A DNA stretch of 64,000 bases from positions 964,398-1,028,397 of the forward strand of contig NZ_SOBT01000009.1 of the NCBI RefSeq assembly GCF_004364935.1. The letters run 5' to 3'. Positions 3,683-22,459 of this stretch are shown piece by piece; position 1 is the stretch's first letter; the number at the start of each line of letters is the position of its first letter. Under the pieces are notes generated by a model that was not told the origin of the DNA, did not search any database, and worked only from the letters and a program-made list of their open reading frames with translations. This stretch comes from Panacagrimonas perspica (GTDB lineage Bacteria > Pseudomonadota > Gammaproteobacteria > Nevskiales > Nevskiaceae). A program made the position numbers and the translations under genes.

Positions 3683-5464
3683 ATGTCGAAGCAGATCCGG
3701 CAGGACGACGAGCCGCGCGGCCTGCGCCGGCGTGATGTTCTGAAAGGACTCGCGGGTGCCGGTGCGCTCGGCGCAACGAGCCTGCCTGCCATCGCCGCCG
3801 TGCCGAGCGATGCGAGCACCACCTGGAATCAGCAGGCCGACGTCGTCATCGTCGGCAGCGGCATCGCTGCGACCAGCGCCGCCATCGCGGCCACGCAGCG
3901 CGGCGCGACGGTGATCATGATCGAGAAGATGCCGTTCAAGGGCGGCACCACGGCGAAGTCGGCCGGCGTGTTCTGGATTCCGAACAATCCGCTGCTGCGC
4001 GCCGCAGGCGTCGTCGACGATCGCCTCGATGCCTTGCGCTACATGGTGCGTCTGGCCTACCCGGACAGCTTCCTGCCCAACCATCCCACGCTCGGCGCAC
4101 CGGCCGCGGCGTTCACGCTGCTCGAAACCTTCGTCGACAACGCGAGCCCCGTGCTCGAGAAGCTGATGGCCGACACCGGCCTGCGTATCATTCCCTGGCA
4201 GTTCGCGCCGGATGCGATCTGGCCCGATTACTACGGCCACATTCCCGAGAACAAGGTCAGCAAGGGACGCTCGCTGGTGACGGACGTGCGCCCGTACCCG
4301 GAGCGGCACTTCTGGGCCGGCGGCGGCGGCAGCGGCGAATCCTTGCTGTGGATGCTGCAGCAGGGCTTCGACAAGCGGCCCATCCAGATGCTGCTCGAAC
4401 ACCAGGTGCTCGCGGTCACGCAGAACGCGGCGGGACAGGTCACCGGCGTCGTCGCCGACGGCGGCGAAACCCAGCCGATCCGCGTGCGCGCGAACAAGGC
4501 CGTGATGTTCGCCACCGGCGGGTTCACGCACAACGTGCCGATGGCCGATGGCTTCCTGCGCGGAAAGATCTGGGGCGGTTGCGCGGCGCCGGGCAGCACC
4601 GGCGACTTCGTCGGCATCGCCACGGGCCTGGGCGCGACGCTCGGCAACATGAACAACGCCTGGTGGGCGCAGGTGCCCGTCGAAGTCGCCGTGAAGACGC
4701 GCAGCGTGCCGTCCAACGTCTGGTCCTGCCCGGGCGACAGCATGCTGGAGGTCAATCGCTACGGTGTACGCTTCGGCAACGAGAAGGTGGCCTACAACGA
4801 GCGCGCGCAGCTCCACTTCACCTGGGACCCGGTGAAGCTCGAGTACCCCAACCAGCTCGGGTTCATGATCTGGGATTCACGCACGTCGAAGGCCTACGCG
4901 GGCTACGACCCGATCCCGCTGCCCACGGCCAAGCCCGCACACATCATCGAAGCGGCGACGTTGCCGGAACTGCGCAAGGCCATCGAAGCGCGCCTGCTCG
5001 CCATCGCGCCGCAGACCGGCGGCATCACGCTGGCGAAGGACTTCGACGCCAATCTGCAGAAGGCGATCCAGCGCTTCAACGGATTCGCGAAGAGCGGCAA
5101 GGATGCGGACTTCCAGCGCGGCGGCACGCCCAACGAGAACGCCTGGCAGTACGCGGTGGTCAAGCCGGCCGCCAACCCGTATGCCAACAAGACGATGCAC
5201 CCCATTGCGTCGACCGGTCCGTTCTACGCGGTGATCCTCGGGGCCGGCACGCTCGACACCAAGGGCGGGCCGATCGTGAACGCGTCCGGCCAGGTGCTGC
5301 ACGCGAGCGGCCAGCCGATTCCGGGTCTCTATGGCGCCGGCAACTGCGTGGCGAGTCCGGCGCACCAGGCCTACTGGGGCGGCGGCGGCACGATCGGACC
5401 GGCGATGACCTTCGGGTACCTGGCCGGCACCGCGGCGGCGGCCGAGGCGATCAGGCCGGCGTAG
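3683..5464 (+). CDS. Tat-exported FAD-dependent dehydrogenase (fumarate reductase / ketosteroid dehydrogenase fold)
   Basis: 593 aa. ATG 3683 follows CAGGAGA by 5 bases and gives a twin-arginine signal: LRRRDVLKGLAGAG then a hydrophobic stretch ending PAIAAV (residues ~15-42). Next come the FAD dinucleotide fold VVIVGSGIAATSAA, the flavoprotein signature IEKMPFKGGTTAKSAG, and a C-terminal FAD loop GAGNCVASPAHQAYWGGGGT / IGPAMTFGYLAG. These are the marks of the FAD-binding-2 family (fumarate reductase, 3-ketosteroid 1-dehydrogenase). The substrate cannot be told; the acyl-CoA and SDR neighbours suggest a steroid or isoprenoid. Export by Tat is unusual for ketosteroid dehydrogenases. The acyl-CoA synthetase gene follows by 11 bases. 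Confidence 0.85.
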   Translation: MSKQIRQDDEPRGLRRRDVLKGLAGAGALGATSLPAIAAVPSDASTTWNQQADVVIVGSGIAATSAAIAATQRGATVIMIEKMPFKGGTTAKSAGVFWIPNNPLLRAAGVVDDRLDALRYMVRLAYPDSFLPNHPTLGAPAAAFTLLETFVDNASPVLEKLMADTGLRIIPWQFAPDAIWPDYYGHIPENKVSKGRSLVTDVRPYPERHFWAGGGGSGESLLWMLQQGFDKRPIQMLLEHQVLAVTQNAAGQVTGVVADGGETQPIRVRANKAVMFATGGFTHNVPMADGFLRGKIWGGCAAPGSTGDFVGIATGLGATLGNMNNAWWAQVPVEVAVKTRSVPSNVWSCPGDSMLEVNRYGVRFGNEKVAYNERAQLHFTWDPVKLEYPNQLGFMIWDSRTSKAYAGYDPIPLPTAKPAHIIEAATLPELRKAIEARLLAIAPQTGGITLAKDFDANLQKAIQRFNGFAKSGKDADFQRGGTPNENAWQYAVVKPAANPYANKTMHPIASTGPFYAVILGAGTLDTKGGPIVNASGQVLHASGQPIPGLYGAGNCVASPAHQAYWGGGGTIGPAMTFGYLAGTAAAAEAIRPA

Positions 5465-5475
5465 GAGTCCGTGTA

Positions 5476-7065
5476 ATGACGACGGAGCAGCCGGATCTCT
5501 TCGCAGGTTCTGCTGTGACACCCGCGCGGCCCAATCCCTGCGATCTCGCGGAGTCTCTGCGCCGCCGCGCACGTCGCGCGCCCGCGCGCCAGGCGCTGAG
5601 CTTCGAGAATCGCAGCTGGACCTACGGCGAGCTGCAGAGTCGCGTCGAACACTTCGCAGCGGTGCTCGCCGCCGGTGGCGTCGGCCGCGGTGATCGCGTC
5701 GGATGGCTGGGCTTCAACGATCCCTTCGTGCTGATCGCGCTGTTCGCGTCGGCGAGCCTCGGCGCGATCTTCGTCCCGCTCAACTTTCGTCTCGCGCGGC
5801 ACGAGCTCGAATTCATCATTGGCGATGCGGGCCTGCACACGCTCATCGTCGACGACGACCATCGCGCGACGATCGTCGATGCGCGCGCCGCAGGCACGCT
5901 GTCGTGCTGCCGCCGGTTCCTGAGGCCCGGTGCCGACACACTAGACGGATGGGACGCGACCGAACCGCTGACGCCTCCGCTCGCGATCGAACCGCGGACC
6001 TCGGTCGCCGGCGATCCGGCGGCGATCATGTACACCTCCGGTACGACCGGGCGGCCCAAGGGTGTGATGCTGACGCACGGCAACCTGTGGGCCAACAGCA
6101 TCAACTGGGTACTCGCCGGCGACCTCGGCTCATCCGATGTCGTGCTCAACTGTGCCCCGCTGTTCCACGTCGGCGGCTTGTGCGTGACCGTGCTGCCGGC
6201 ATTGCTCGCCGGTGGTCACGTCGTGCTGCAGCGTGCGTTCGTGCCGGCCGACTACCTGGCCGCCATCGCGCGTCATCGCATCACGCTGAGCTTCGCGGTG
6301 CCGGCGATGTTGCTCGCGGTCACGCAGCACGAGGATTTCGCGAGCACCGATCTGTCGAGCCTGCGGTTGATCATCGGCGGCGGCGCGCCGGTGCCCGAAC
6401 CGCTGCTGCGGCTGTTCAACGGGCGTGGCATTCCGATGAGCCAGGGTTTCGGCATGACGGAGAGCTCGTCCGCGGTCACGTTTCTCGAAGCCGAACGGGC
6501 GATCGACAAGCTCGGGTCCTGCGGCAAGGCGACGCTGCTCAGCGAGTTCCGCCTGGTCGACGCAGAGGGCGTCGTCATCACCGAAGCCGGCATCAAGGGT
6601 GAGATCTGCCTGCGCGGCGAGAACGTCACGCCGGGTTACTGGAACCGCCCCGAAGCCACGCGCGAGGCCATCGACGCCGAAGGCTGGCTGCACAGCGGCG
6701 ACGTCGGTTACTGCGACGCCGAGGGCTTCCTGTACGTGTGCGACCGGCTGAAGGACATGATCATCAGCGGCGGCGAGAACATCTATCCGGCCGAGATCGA
6801 GAACGTGCTGTACGACCATCCCGCGGTGTTCGAGGTGGCCATCGTCGGCGCGCCCGACGCGCAATGGGGCGAGCGCGTGGTGGCGTTCGTCGCGACGCGG
6901 CCTGGACACAACATGACGCTGGAGGAGCTACGCGATTTCACAGGCCAACGGCTCGCGCGCTACAAGCTGCCGCGGGAACTGCGCCTGATCGACGCGCTCC
7001 CGCGCAACTCGAACGGCAAGGTGCTCAAGGCGGAACTGCGCGAACGCTGCGCCACGTCCGCGTAG
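5476..7065 (+). CDS. Acyl-CoA synthetase (AMP-forming)
   Basis: 529 aa, class I adenylate-forming ligase making acyl-CoA from an acid, ATP and CoA. The start is the ATG at 5476, 11 bases after the flavoprotein stop. Visible motifs: A3 loop MYTSGTTGRPKGVM (~residues 180-193), GGGAPVPEPLL, A5 QGFGMTESSS, A7 WLHSGDVGYCD, A8 hinge DRLKDMIISGGENIYPAEIE, and A10 lysine in PRNSNGKVLK. The length is normal. The TAG stop lies inside REP copy 2. It probably activates a carboxylated intermediate for beta-oxidation by the neighbouring dehydrogenase and hydratase. Confidence 0.92.
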   Translation: MTTEQPDLFAGSAVTPARPNPCDLAESLRRRARRAPARQALSFENRSWTYGELQSRVEHFAAVLAAGGVGRGDRVGWLGFNDPFVLIALFASASLGAIFVPLNFRLARHELEFIIGDAGLHTLIVDDDHRATIVDARAAGTLSCCRRFLRPGADTLDGWDATEPLTPPLAIEPRTSVAGDPAAIMYTSGTTGRPKGVMLTHGNLWANSINWVLAGDLGSSDVVLNCAPLFHVGGLCVTVLPALLAGGHVVLQRAFVPADYLAAIARHRITLSFAVPAMLLAVTQHEDFASTDLSSLRLIIGGGAPVPEPLLRLFNGRGIPMSQGFGMTESSSAVTFLEAERAIDKLGSCGKATLLSEFRLVDAEGVVITEAGIKGEICLRGENVTPGYWNRPEATREAIDAEGWLHSGDVGYCDAEGFLYVCDRLKDMIISGGENIYPAEIENVLYDHPAVFEVAIVGAPDAQWGERVVAFVATRPGHNMTLEELRDFTGQRLARYKLPRELRLIDALPRNSNGKVLKAELRERCATSA

Positions 7066-7126
7066 CCCGGGTGAAACCGGGATCCGTTCCGTTTGCGATA
7101 GACACCCCGGGTTTCACCCGGGCTAC
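7061..7126. repeat. REP/BIME copy 2, supplies stop codons of two genes
   Basis: CGTAGCCCGGGTGAAACC on the left, facing GGGTTTCACCCGGGCTAC on the right. The left GTAG contains the TAG stop of the acyl-CoA synthetase (7063-7065); the right arm contains the TAG stop of the convergent acyl-CoA dehydrogenase on the minus strand (7123-7125). Confidence 0.85.
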
Positions 7127-8283
7127 AAACCTAGCTTCTTCGACGCCAGTTCCTTGAGGATGTCCTCGGCGCCGCCGCCGATCATGATCGCCTTCACGTC
7201 GCGGTAGATCCGCTCGCTGCGCATGCCGCGCATGAATCCCATGCCGCCGAGGATCTGCACGGCCTGGTCGGCGCAGGACTGCATCGTGCGGCCGGCCATG
7301 ACCTTGAGCATGCACAGCTCGGCGACGAATTCCTCGCTGCGGTCGCCCGTATCCATGCGTGCGGTGCAGCGATCGATCCACGCGCGCGTTGCGGTGATCT
7401 GCATGCGCATGTCCACCAGCTTGTGCCGGATCACCTGGTGCTTGACCAGCGGCACGCCGAAGGTGCGCCGTTCGCGCGCCCAGTCCGCCGCTTCGTCGTA
7501 ACAGACCTCGGCGAACGCGCAGGCCTCGTCCGCCATCATCAGGCGTTCGCCGTTGAAGTTCTCCATCAGCGTGCGAAAGCCGGCGCCCTCGCGGCCGAGC
7601 AGGTTGGCCACCGGCACGCGGCAACCATCGAAGTGCAAGGTCGCGGTGTCCGAGCTCCACCAGCCCATCTTGCGCAGCCGCGTGCGCGTGAAGCCCGGAC
7701 GGTCGCGCTCGACCAGCAGCATCGACACGCCGCCCGCGCCTTCGCCGCCGGTGCGTACCGCCACTACGTAGAAGTCCGCACGCATGCCGTTCGAGATGAA
7801 CGTCTTCTCGCCGTCGATGACGAACTCGTCGCCCTCGCGGCGCGCACGCGTACGCAGGTTGGCCACGTCCGATCCGCCCGAAGGCTCGGTGATGGCGCAG
7901 GCCGCGATGTGCTCGCCGGAGAACACGCCCGGCAGCGTGCGCTGCTTCTGCTCCTCGCTGCCCAGCGCCAGCATCGGCTGCGCGAAGATCGAGTGCGTGA
8001 ACAGGCAGACGAAGACGCCGCCGCAGCCGGCGCGCGCCAGTTCCTGGATCGCGACCGAGCGCATCGTCAGGCTCGCCGGCATGCCGCCGTAGGCCTCGGG
8101 ATATCCGAGGCCGAGCACACCCATCTCGCCGACCTTGCGATAGATCTCGCGCGGCATCTCGCCGACTTCCTCCCACTCGTCGACGAAGGGCGCGATCTCG
8201 CGATCGACGAAGCGGCGAAGCTGGGTCCGGAACTCGGCGAGTTCCTCGGCGGTTTCCGTGGGGCGATGGCCTTCAGGGGTCAT
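7123..8283 (-). CDS. Acyl-CoA dehydrogenase
   Basis: 386 aa FAD enzyme forming the 2,3-enoyl-CoA. Family marks in order: LGYPEAYGGM (~57-66), the substrate/flavin region CAITEPSGGSD, DGEKTFISNG, MGWWSSDTATL, ERRTFGVPL, QILGGMGFMRG and ERIYRDVKAIMIGGG. At the usual catalytic Glu position of medium-chain enzymes (YEGT) there is GGG. An ERL segment (NGERLMMAD) sits where isovaleryl-CoA-type enzymes carry their base, so that Glu is the probable catalyst (inference). It is transcribed toward the synthetase and in the same direction as the enoyl-CoA hydratase. Confidence 0.92.
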   Translation of the reverse strand: MTPEGHRPTETAEELAEFRTQLRRFVDREIAPFVDEWEEVGEMPREIYRKVGEMGVLGLGYPEAYGGMPASLTMRSVAIQELARAGCGGVFVCLFTHSIFAQPMLALGSEEQKQRTLPGVFSGEHIAACAITEPSGGSDVANLRTRARREGDEFVIDGEKTFISNGMRADFYVVAVRTGGEGAGGVSMLLVERDRPGFTRTRLRKMGWWSSDTATLHFDGCRVPVANLLGREGAGFRTLMENFNGERLMMADEACAFAEVCYDEAADWARERRTFGVPLVKHQVIRHKLVDMRMQITATRAWIDRCTARMDTGDRSEEFVAELCMLKVMAGRTMQSCADQAVQILGGMGFMRGMRSERIYRDVKAIMIGGGAEDILKELASKKLGL

Positions 8284-9530: not shown

Positions 9531-11153
9531 ATGGTGCAGACGCAGACGACGCTCATCAACCGGGTCGCGATCGGGGACATCCCGCGCCGCGTGGCCGTGC
9601 TGTATCCGGACAAGATCGCGTTCATCGACGGCGATCGCCGCGTCACGCATCGCGAGTTCGACCAGCGTTGCAACCAGTTCGCGCGCCATCTGCTCGGCCG
9701 TGGCTTGAAGAAGGGCGATGCCGTCGCCTGCCTGTGCGTGAACTCGCTGGATTTCATCGTCGCCGCTTTCGGCATCGCCAAGGCAGGGCTGGTCTGGGTG
9801 CCGATGAACGTGCTGCTCAAGCGCCAGCAGCTCGATTACATCCTGGAGAAGGTCGACGCGAAGCTGCTGATCGTCGACGAGGCGTTGTTGCCGGTGATGC
9901 GCGAAGCCGGGCGCACGCCGCCGGACCTGCTGACCATTGACGATCCCTCTCCCGTAGCCCGGACGAAGTCCGGGGGCCCGAATTCGTCGGCCGAGGCATC
10001 CCCGGACTTCGTCCGGGCTACGGGGGGGAACTTCGCCTACGCTTTCTCCGGCCAACCGACCACCGACCCCGAAGTCGAGATCCAGGACCGCGATACCGCC
10101 ATCGTCATGTTCACCAGCGGGACCACCGCCGAGCAGAAGGGCGTGGTCATCAGCCATCTCGCGGTGTACCTGGCGACGCTGAACAACATCATCGAGATGG
10201 AGATGCGCACCGACGACGTCACCGTCGCGATGCTGCCGTTCTTCCATTGCGCGCAGCACACGCTGGTCAGCTCGTTTCTGCATCGTGGCGCCACGCAGAT
10301 CGTCATGCGCGGGTTCGACGCCGAAACGCTGATGCGGCACATCACGGACCAGCGCGTCACCTGGTGCTTCGCGCTGCCGACGATGTGGCGCGCGGTGCTC
10401 GATCACCCGCAACGCGCGAAGTATCGCTTCGACTCGATGCGCTACGGCCTGTACGCGATGACGCCGATGGACGCCGAGACCTTGTCGCGGCTGATCCACG
10501 AGATTTGCCCGCGCTTCGCGCTCAGCAGCGGACAGACCGAGGTGTATCCGTCGGCCTGCGTGTTCCGCCCCGAATACCAGTTCACGAAGAAGGGTCAGTA
10601 CTGGGGTCAGCAGGGACTGACCTGCGAATTCCAGATCATGGACGACGCCGGAAATCTGCTGCCGCGAGGACAGATCGGCGAGCTCGTCGTACGCGGACCC
10701 ACCGTGTTGATGGAGTACCTCAAGGACGAGGCCGCCACGGCCGCCTCGCGCGAGCACGGCTGGCACCACACCGGCGATCTCGGCCTCATCGACGAGGACG
10801 GGCAGTTCCTGTTCAGCGATCGCAAGAAGGACATGATCAAGTCCGGCGGCGAGAACGTGGCGTCGTGCACCGTCGAGGGCGCGCTGCTCGGGCATCCGGG
10901 CGTGGCGGCCGCGGCCGTCGTCGGCCTGCCGCACGATTACTGGATCGAGGCGGTCACCGCCTTCGTCGTGCCCAAGCCCGGCATCGCGCTGAGCGAAGAC
11001 GAGATCGGCGCCTGGTGCCGCGAACGCCTGGGCAAGCACGAGGTGCCCAAGCGCGTCGTGTTCCTCGAACGTTTTCCGATGACCGTGACGGGAAAGATCC
11101 TCAAGCACGTCATCCGCAGCGAACACGCCGGGCTGTTCCGCGAGCCGGGATGA
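9531..11153 (+). CDS. Acyl-CoA synthetase with in-frame REP insertion
   Basis: 540 aa AMP-forming ligase. ATG 9531 follows AGGAGAGTTG. Motifs: MFTSGTTAEQKGVV (A3), LSSGQTEVYPS at the A5 position, HHTGDLGLIDEDG (A7), DRKKDMIKSGGENVAS (A8) and the C-terminal lysine in MTVTGKILK. Residues ~141-164 (VARTKSGG...PDFVRATG) are encoded exactly by a 72-bp REP pair and have no counterpart in the first synthetase. They lie just before the A3 motif, in a likely surface loop, so the enzyme may stay active. The SDR gene follows 52 bases later. Confidence 0.9.
   Translation: MVQTQTTLINRVAIGDIPRRVAVLYPDKIAFIDGDRRVTHREFDQRCNQFARHLLGRGLKKGDAVACLCVNSLDFIVAAFGIAKAGLVWVPMNVLLKRQQLDYILEKVDAKLLIVDEALLPVMREAGRTPPDLLTIDDPSPVARTKSGGPNSSAEASPDFVRATGGNFAYAFSGQPTTDPEVEIQDRDTAIVMFTSGTTAEQKGVVISHLAVYLATLNNIIEMEMRTDDVTVAMLPFFHCAQHTLVSSFLHRGATQIVMRGFDAETLMRHITDQRVTWCFALPTMWRAVLDHPQRAKYRFDSMRYGLYAMTPMDAETLSRLIHEICPRFALSSGQTEVYPSACVFRPEYQFTKKGQYWGQQGLTCEFQIMDDAGNLLPRGQIGELVVRGPTVLMEYLKDEAATAASREHGWHHTGDLGLIDEDGQFLFSDRKKDMIKSGGENVASCTVEGALLGHPGVAAAAVVGLPHDYWIEAVTAFVVPKPGIALSEDEIGAWCRERLGKHEVPKRVVFLERFPMTVTGKILKHVIRSEHAGLFREPG
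9952..10023. repeat. REP/BIME copy 4, inside a coding region
   Basis: CCGTAGCCCGGACGAAGTCC and the mirror arm CCGGACTTCGTCCGGGCTAC enclose ~23 bases. The unit is 72 bp, a multiple of three, and contains no stop in the synthetase frame although GTAG carries TAG in another frame. The arms are intact, which suggests a recent insertion. Confidence 0.9.
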
Positions 11154-11988: not shown

Positions 11989-12000
11989 TCGGACGCATCC

Positions 12001-12067
12001 GTAGCCCGGACGAAGTCCGGGGCTGCTGCACGCAATACGACCGGACCCCGGACTTCGTCCGGGCTAC
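12001..12067. repeat. REP/BIME copy 5
   Basis: GTAGCCCGGACGAAGTCCGG and its mirror, GAC/GTC type, in the gap between the two SDR genes and about 30 bases upstream of the second SDR start. Confidence 0.85.
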
Positions 12068-12097
12068 GTTCCACTTCAGGATCAGGAGAGCATTCCC

Positions 12098-22320: not shown

Positions 22321-22459
22321 ACCGCAAAGGCGCAAAGGGAAAAGAAAGGACGCAAAGGAAAAGAATGAAAACTCCGTCTCCTGAAATCGAGCTGCTCGAA
22401 CGGGAATCTGCCCTGATCCCATCTTTGCGACCTTTCTTTTCCCTTTGCGCCTTTGCGGT
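22321..22459. repeat. Long inverted repeat between kdpA and kdpB
   Basis: 37-base arms at 22321-22357 and 22423-22459 match at 36 of 37 positions; each arm holds CGCAAAGG repeats (e.g. ACCGCAAAGGCGCAAAGGGA) and the loop is 65 bases. Its purine-rich/pyrimidine-rich strands stand out from the GC-rich flanks. In the transcript it would form a long stem in the middle of the kdp operon. It has the look of a miniature palindromic element and no coding potential. Confidence 0.9.

Follow-up and report, generated by a model that had tools for sequence, protein, structure and literature searches.

An in-frame GTAG REP pair in an acyl-CoA synthetase gene, at a site probably renewed by REP turnover

REPIN/RAYT systems have been described by Bertels and Rainey (2011, PMC3116915) and by Nunvar et al. 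(2010, PMC2817692; 2013, PMC3686654), and copies of REP elements inside genes are also on record. In the portions of Di Nocera et al. (2013, PMC3733652) available to us, which deals with intragenic GTAG/CGTC REPs, in-frame GTAG REPs are reported in many annotated genes, more than half of them are dimers or groups coding for 20-30 aa that are thought to lie in loops or linkers, and recB of X. campestris and X. oryzae carries different REPs at about the same site. Those portions hold no mention that we could find of the gene or the genus considered here. The Rickettsia palindromic elements (RPE; Ogata, Claverie), as cited in the same portions, lie in frame in genes whose proteins are likely functional. 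The accessible part of Delihas (2007, PMC2759123) describes enterobacterial RU elements, small mobile repeats with open frames in annotated genes.

Here we compare with these systems a REP pair from the window, a 64,000-nucleotide stretch of DNA whose numbering is used for all positions given without a contig name. An earlier note on this DNA had presented the pair as a repeat turned into protein within an otherwise complete enzyme.

The REP pair and its host gene

The pair lies within the reading frame of an acyl-CoA synthetase gene, and the features of the locus are as follows:

9531..11153, + strand: AMP-binding acyl-CoA synthetase, 540 aa, host of the insert (ORF, Pfam, homologues, dN/dS)
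9954..10021, + strand: GTAG REP pair (REPIN/BIME), codons 142-164 (inverted repeat, genome copies)
9954..9974, + strand: left REP, GTAGCCCGGACGAAGTCCGGG, which translates to VARTKSG (sequence)
9975..10000, + strand: REP spacer, hairpin tip (inverted-repeat search)
10001..10021, - strand: right REP, an inverted copy, whose + strand translates to (S)PDFVRAT (sequence)
10113..10127, + strand: P-loop motif TSGTT, residues 195-199 (sequence, alignment)

The element is a perfect inverted repeat: its arms (9951-9975 and 10000-10024) are complementary at 25/25 nt and enclose a 24-nt spacer. The span from GTAG to CTAC is 68 bp (9954-10021), and complementarity reaches 9951-10024. Both arms are inverted copies of GTAGCCCGGACGAAGTCCGGG, the dominant REP of the genome, and in both the 5' GTAG head is followed by a short imperfect palindrome, as is typical of GTAG REPs and REPINs. 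The host ORF starts with the ATG at 9531, stays open through the REP pair and ends at the stop codon at 11151-11153, which bears out the earlier description of a pair that is in frame with intact arms. In the host frame, codons 142-164 translate to VARTKSGGPNSSAEASPDFVRAT; SGGPNSSAEASPDFVR is an example of a peptide within or across these residues.

The claim of an otherwise complete enzyme also stands. The Pfam models AMP-binding (4-384/384) and AMP-binding_C (2-76/76) are matched nearly at full length, the best PDB fold match of the protein is feruloyl-CoA synthetase 8wev (TM 0.84/0.93), and the catalytic motifs are kept, with 38 columns invariant over 24 homologues, including T195, G197, T198, K203 and K522. 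Judged by its sequence, the host protein is an AMP-binding (ANL) acyl-CoA synthetase, with both Pfam domains, the P-loop TSGTT and the Lys of the C-terminal domain. The insert had been placed just before the ATP-binding loop: it does lie upstream of this loop, but not immediately so, with TSGTT following about 30 residues downstream.

Compared with the orthologue from the same genus, the host gene has a dN/dS of 0.215 (dS 0.51, dN 0.11). The value is much the same 5' and 3' of the insert, which indicates purifying selection and not the decay of a pseudogene. The suggestion that the locus is a pseudogene or an assembly artefact, in favour of which we found nothing, is hardly credible: the frame is open, the catalytic motifs are kept, on each side of the insert dN/dS is about 0.2 and coding scores are high (0.84/0.81), and a REP is found at the same place in the separately assembled genome of the relative.

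Folded as RNA, the REP pair reaches -72.3 kcal/mol (z -8.2), as expected of any REP pair. A stable mRNA hairpin of this kind might slow ribosomes, or affect mRNA decay or downstream transcription. However, the right arm, and with it the large hairpin, is absent in the relative, and even so the comparison of the two species shows constraint on the gene. A role at the RNA level is thus very improbable.

The REP family and its rare copies in genes

That the element comes from an abundant REP family, and is no chance pattern, is indicated by the 477+491 matches (968) of the pattern GTAGCCCGG-N(4-14)-CCGGG in 5.4 Mb, compared with 1+2 (3) for a reversed control pattern. A 96-bp query gives 82 matches in its own genome, and the window contains 19 strict REPs in 11 clusters. 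Close inverted doublets are common (135 of the 237 REP clusters on contig C1 are +- pairs), and the most frequent lengths of REP pairs are 67-68 nt. An ORF for a RAYT-type Y1_Tnp protein (L045, C2:624212-624562) has copies of GTAGCCCGGACGAAGTCCGGG on both sides, identical to the REPs of the pair studied here. This gene, flanked by the same REP as a cognate RAYT would be, is the likely source of the family. The element belongs to the GTAG REP/REPIN (RAYT-linked) family, and it is the location of this copy, not its sequence, that is the exception.

Other repeats lie nearby in the window. A REP pair at 7062-7126 separates a convergent acyl-CoA synthetase gene (4348-7065, +) and acyl-CoA dehydrogenase gene (7123-8283, -), and according to the ORF table and the sequence its two GTAG heads give TAG stop codons to both. 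The intergenic REP pair at 12000-12068, shortly 3' of the acyl-CoA synthetase gene, is not present in the same-genus relative: the gap that holds it measures 118 nt here and about 30 nt there, pointing to a lineage-specific insertion. An unrelated, purine-rich inverted repeat at 22321-22459 (ACCGCAAAGGCGCAAAGGG...; 37-nt arms, 97% complementary) possibly represents another repeat family.

The statement that REPs are normally intergenic proved true of this genome. In a survey of 2.46 Mb (about half of the genome, largely contig C1), 3 of 248 REP clusters passed a test for in-frame cases, which called for an open frame and coding-like hexamer scores on both sides; two of these are convincing, the present pair and C1:303507-303573. 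Training ORFs of at least 1200 nt alone make up 66% of the first 1.2 Mb, yet convincing in-frame placement within a gene is limited to 2/248 clusters, indicating that REPs are strongly depleted there. The family as a whole is thus extragenic in this genome, but this copy is not. The third match (C1:925949-925976), a single pattern without a pair in the gene of a Nudix-like protein, was put down to chance.

The present pair is not the only case in the genome, since the second in-frame pair (C1:303507-303573; L213; L061:2882-4021; GLRHHRSPDEVREGSSTGAGLPDFVRATGG) lies in a 2Fe-2S/FAD-type oxidoreductase. The orthologue of this oxidoreductase in the relative has exactly 28 codons fewer at this place, which marks a clear empty site. 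Both in-gene REP-coded stretches end in PDFVRATGG. Keeping the frame through a REP pair is not hard: all of the REP pairs tested (192/192) are open in at least one of the six frames (3.6 on average), and 29% match the length of this pair modulo 3.

A variable loop and its REP in a related species

The orthologues without an insert that the earlier note had envisaged do not include the nearest one. The same-genus orthologue (L012), about 80% identical in amino acids to the host protein, carries GTAGCCCGGGCGCAGCGCGGG in the corresponding loop, with orientation and frame unchanged (RVARAQRG, compared with PVARTKSGG here). A single mismatch separates this sequence from GTAGCCCGGGCGCAGCCCGGG, which is common among the REPs of the relative's own genome; that genome has 91 strict REPs. 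The loop therefore carries a REP in both species, and in each the REP is of the type of that genome. In L012 it is a single, decayed REP of 21 nt: there is no right REP, and the left flank shows a difference of 6 codons. Searches at family and order level gave one same-genus orthologue (L012 and L041 denote one contig), so that the case for shared ancestry of this site depends on a single comparison; a clean empty site, which would represent the ancestral state, was not seen at this locus in any relative compared.

The loop itself varies in length. Between conserved anchors (112-199) there are 88 residues here, 79 in the same-genus orthologue, 70-71 in the four nearest REP-free orthologues (L013-L015, L043) and 68-77 in other homologues, and the loop sequence has no clear similarity among homologues. 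Thus the REP pair sits in a length-variable loop. The net gain is +9 codons relative to the same-genus orthologue and about +17 relative to the closest REP-free orthologues, less than the length of the element, indicating that some of the original loop has been lost or replaced. A clean 24-codon insertion into an unchanged loop is rejected: without the REP codons the loop would have 64 residues, fewer than in all homologues compared (68-77). The figure of 24 added codons must accordingly be replaced by a net gain of 9-17, in a place where orthologues carry an unrelated, variable loop. The finding that the earlier note had named as refuting its reading, an unrelated loop of the same length in orthologues of distant species, is thus in part what the comparison shows.

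An AlphaFold2 model of the host protein (24 sequences) has a mean pLDDT of 87.8, and its sole internal segment below 50 is 141-164, which comprises the REP codons 142-164; as low pLDDT is expected where homologues are absent, this segment by itself is weak evidence of disorder. The model places the insert in a predicted loop, as the earlier note had suggested, and the loop is presumably at the surface. We predict that the REP-coded stretch is disordered.

Could the insert have been co-opted, its peptide or the added loop length altering the substrate, partner binding or domain movement of the enzyme? The gene that retains it is intact and constrained (dN/dS 0.215), and a REP is found in this loop in two species. 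However, the relative's loop has diverged and is without half of the element, the insert is predicted to be disordered, and the loops of homologues are unrelated, with 68-77 residues between the same anchors. We consider co-option extremely improbable.

Other REP sites of the two genomes bear on the history of this one. Intergenic gaps that bear a REP in the relative bear one here in 9 of 13 cases, compared with 5 of 30 for gaps that are REP-free there (Fisher P=0.0014; 41 stretches of the relative mapped against the sampled half of this genome). In several shared gaps (e.g. L110, L128) the GTAG boundaries match to the nucleotide and the arm types differ; in the shared gaps L124 and L126, the REPs are at different nucleotide positions in the two genomes. 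The cores at shared sites are mostly ACGAAGT or GTGAAAC here and mostly GCGAAGC or GCGCAGC in the relative, a sequence pattern that would be expected from replacement of the REP type at old sites. The relative has a similar RAYT-type gene (L142), flanked by a different REP type than L045. At a dS of about 0.5, the perfect consensus arms suggest that the present pair arose after the two species split or has been renewed. As a separate observation, REP counts are tenfold apart in these two genomes of one genus (968 and 91), and their dominant types differ.

We favour, with a probability of about 0.65, the reading that the site has long carried a REP, which RAYT/REP turnover renewed in this lineage and which is tolerated as a disordered loop. 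A REP was probably present there already in the common ancestor with the same-genus relative. Renewal could have taken the form of RAYT-driven re-insertion at the resident GTAG, or of conversion from other copies, and the renewed REP would be of the dominant type of this genome. We infer both the shared ancestry and this mechanism from the comparisons above. The pair would then be read in frame as a disordered stretch of 23-24 residues in a working acyl-CoA synthetase, presumably translated and neutral, and would have been kept because it has no stop in the frame in use, is of a length that leaves the frame intact and lies in a tolerant loop. Retention would require no function of the REP-coded peptide.

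The competing reading that deserves most attention is that of two independent REP insertions in the same tolerant loop, one per lineage. The arm types are lineage-specific, each of its own genome's type, so that renewal would not be needed; the flank lengths and copy number differ (a 68-nt pair and a single 21-nt REP); and the second in-gene pair of the genome is clearly lineage-specific, with an empty site in the relative. But REP sites shared by the two genomes have commonly changed arm type, and because in-gene REPs are rare (2/248), chance is unlikely to have placed two of them in one loop with matching orientation and frame. Independent insertion is therefore possible but doubtful.

Renewal of an old site may be part of a broader process, in which a genome-wide change of REP type also turned the in-frame REP already present here into the new type of the lineage, and the repeat population repeatedly edits a loop of an enzyme that remains functional. 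We regard this wider proposal as evenly balanced.

Comparison with known systems

With its GTAG head, palindrome and inverted doublets, the element resembles those of the REPIN/RAYT systems. As in the orthoswitch (PMC3686654), related genomes have RAYT genes that are alike but whose flanking REPs differ in type; that model deals with REP populations and RAYT flanks, whereas here the type changes at a site inside a coding gene. The RPE, an older precedent, are likewise palindromic repeats in frame in genes, but they differ in sequence family (CGTC or longer), hosts and frequency, in-gene cases being rare in this genome. The RU elements, in the accessible part of their description, differ in being longer and MITE-like (103-168 bp), and form another family.

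A close match is with the intragenic REPs of Di Nocera et al. (2013). As defined in the available portions of that article, the REP here lies wholly within an ORF of >120 aa, the frame is open, and homologues (L013-L015, L043) are without it. In contrast to the cases given there, the age of the site and its turnover were tested here against a relative. The locus appears to offer a clean example of a repeat that is read as protein; the enzyme can be assayed, and a relative shows another state of the loop. Together with C1:303507-303573, where the empty site is clear, it offers tests of the neutrality of REP peptides and of type change in place. In-frame REP dimers have been known since 2013; to these the locus adds an instance in which turnover of REP type within a working gene can be tested.
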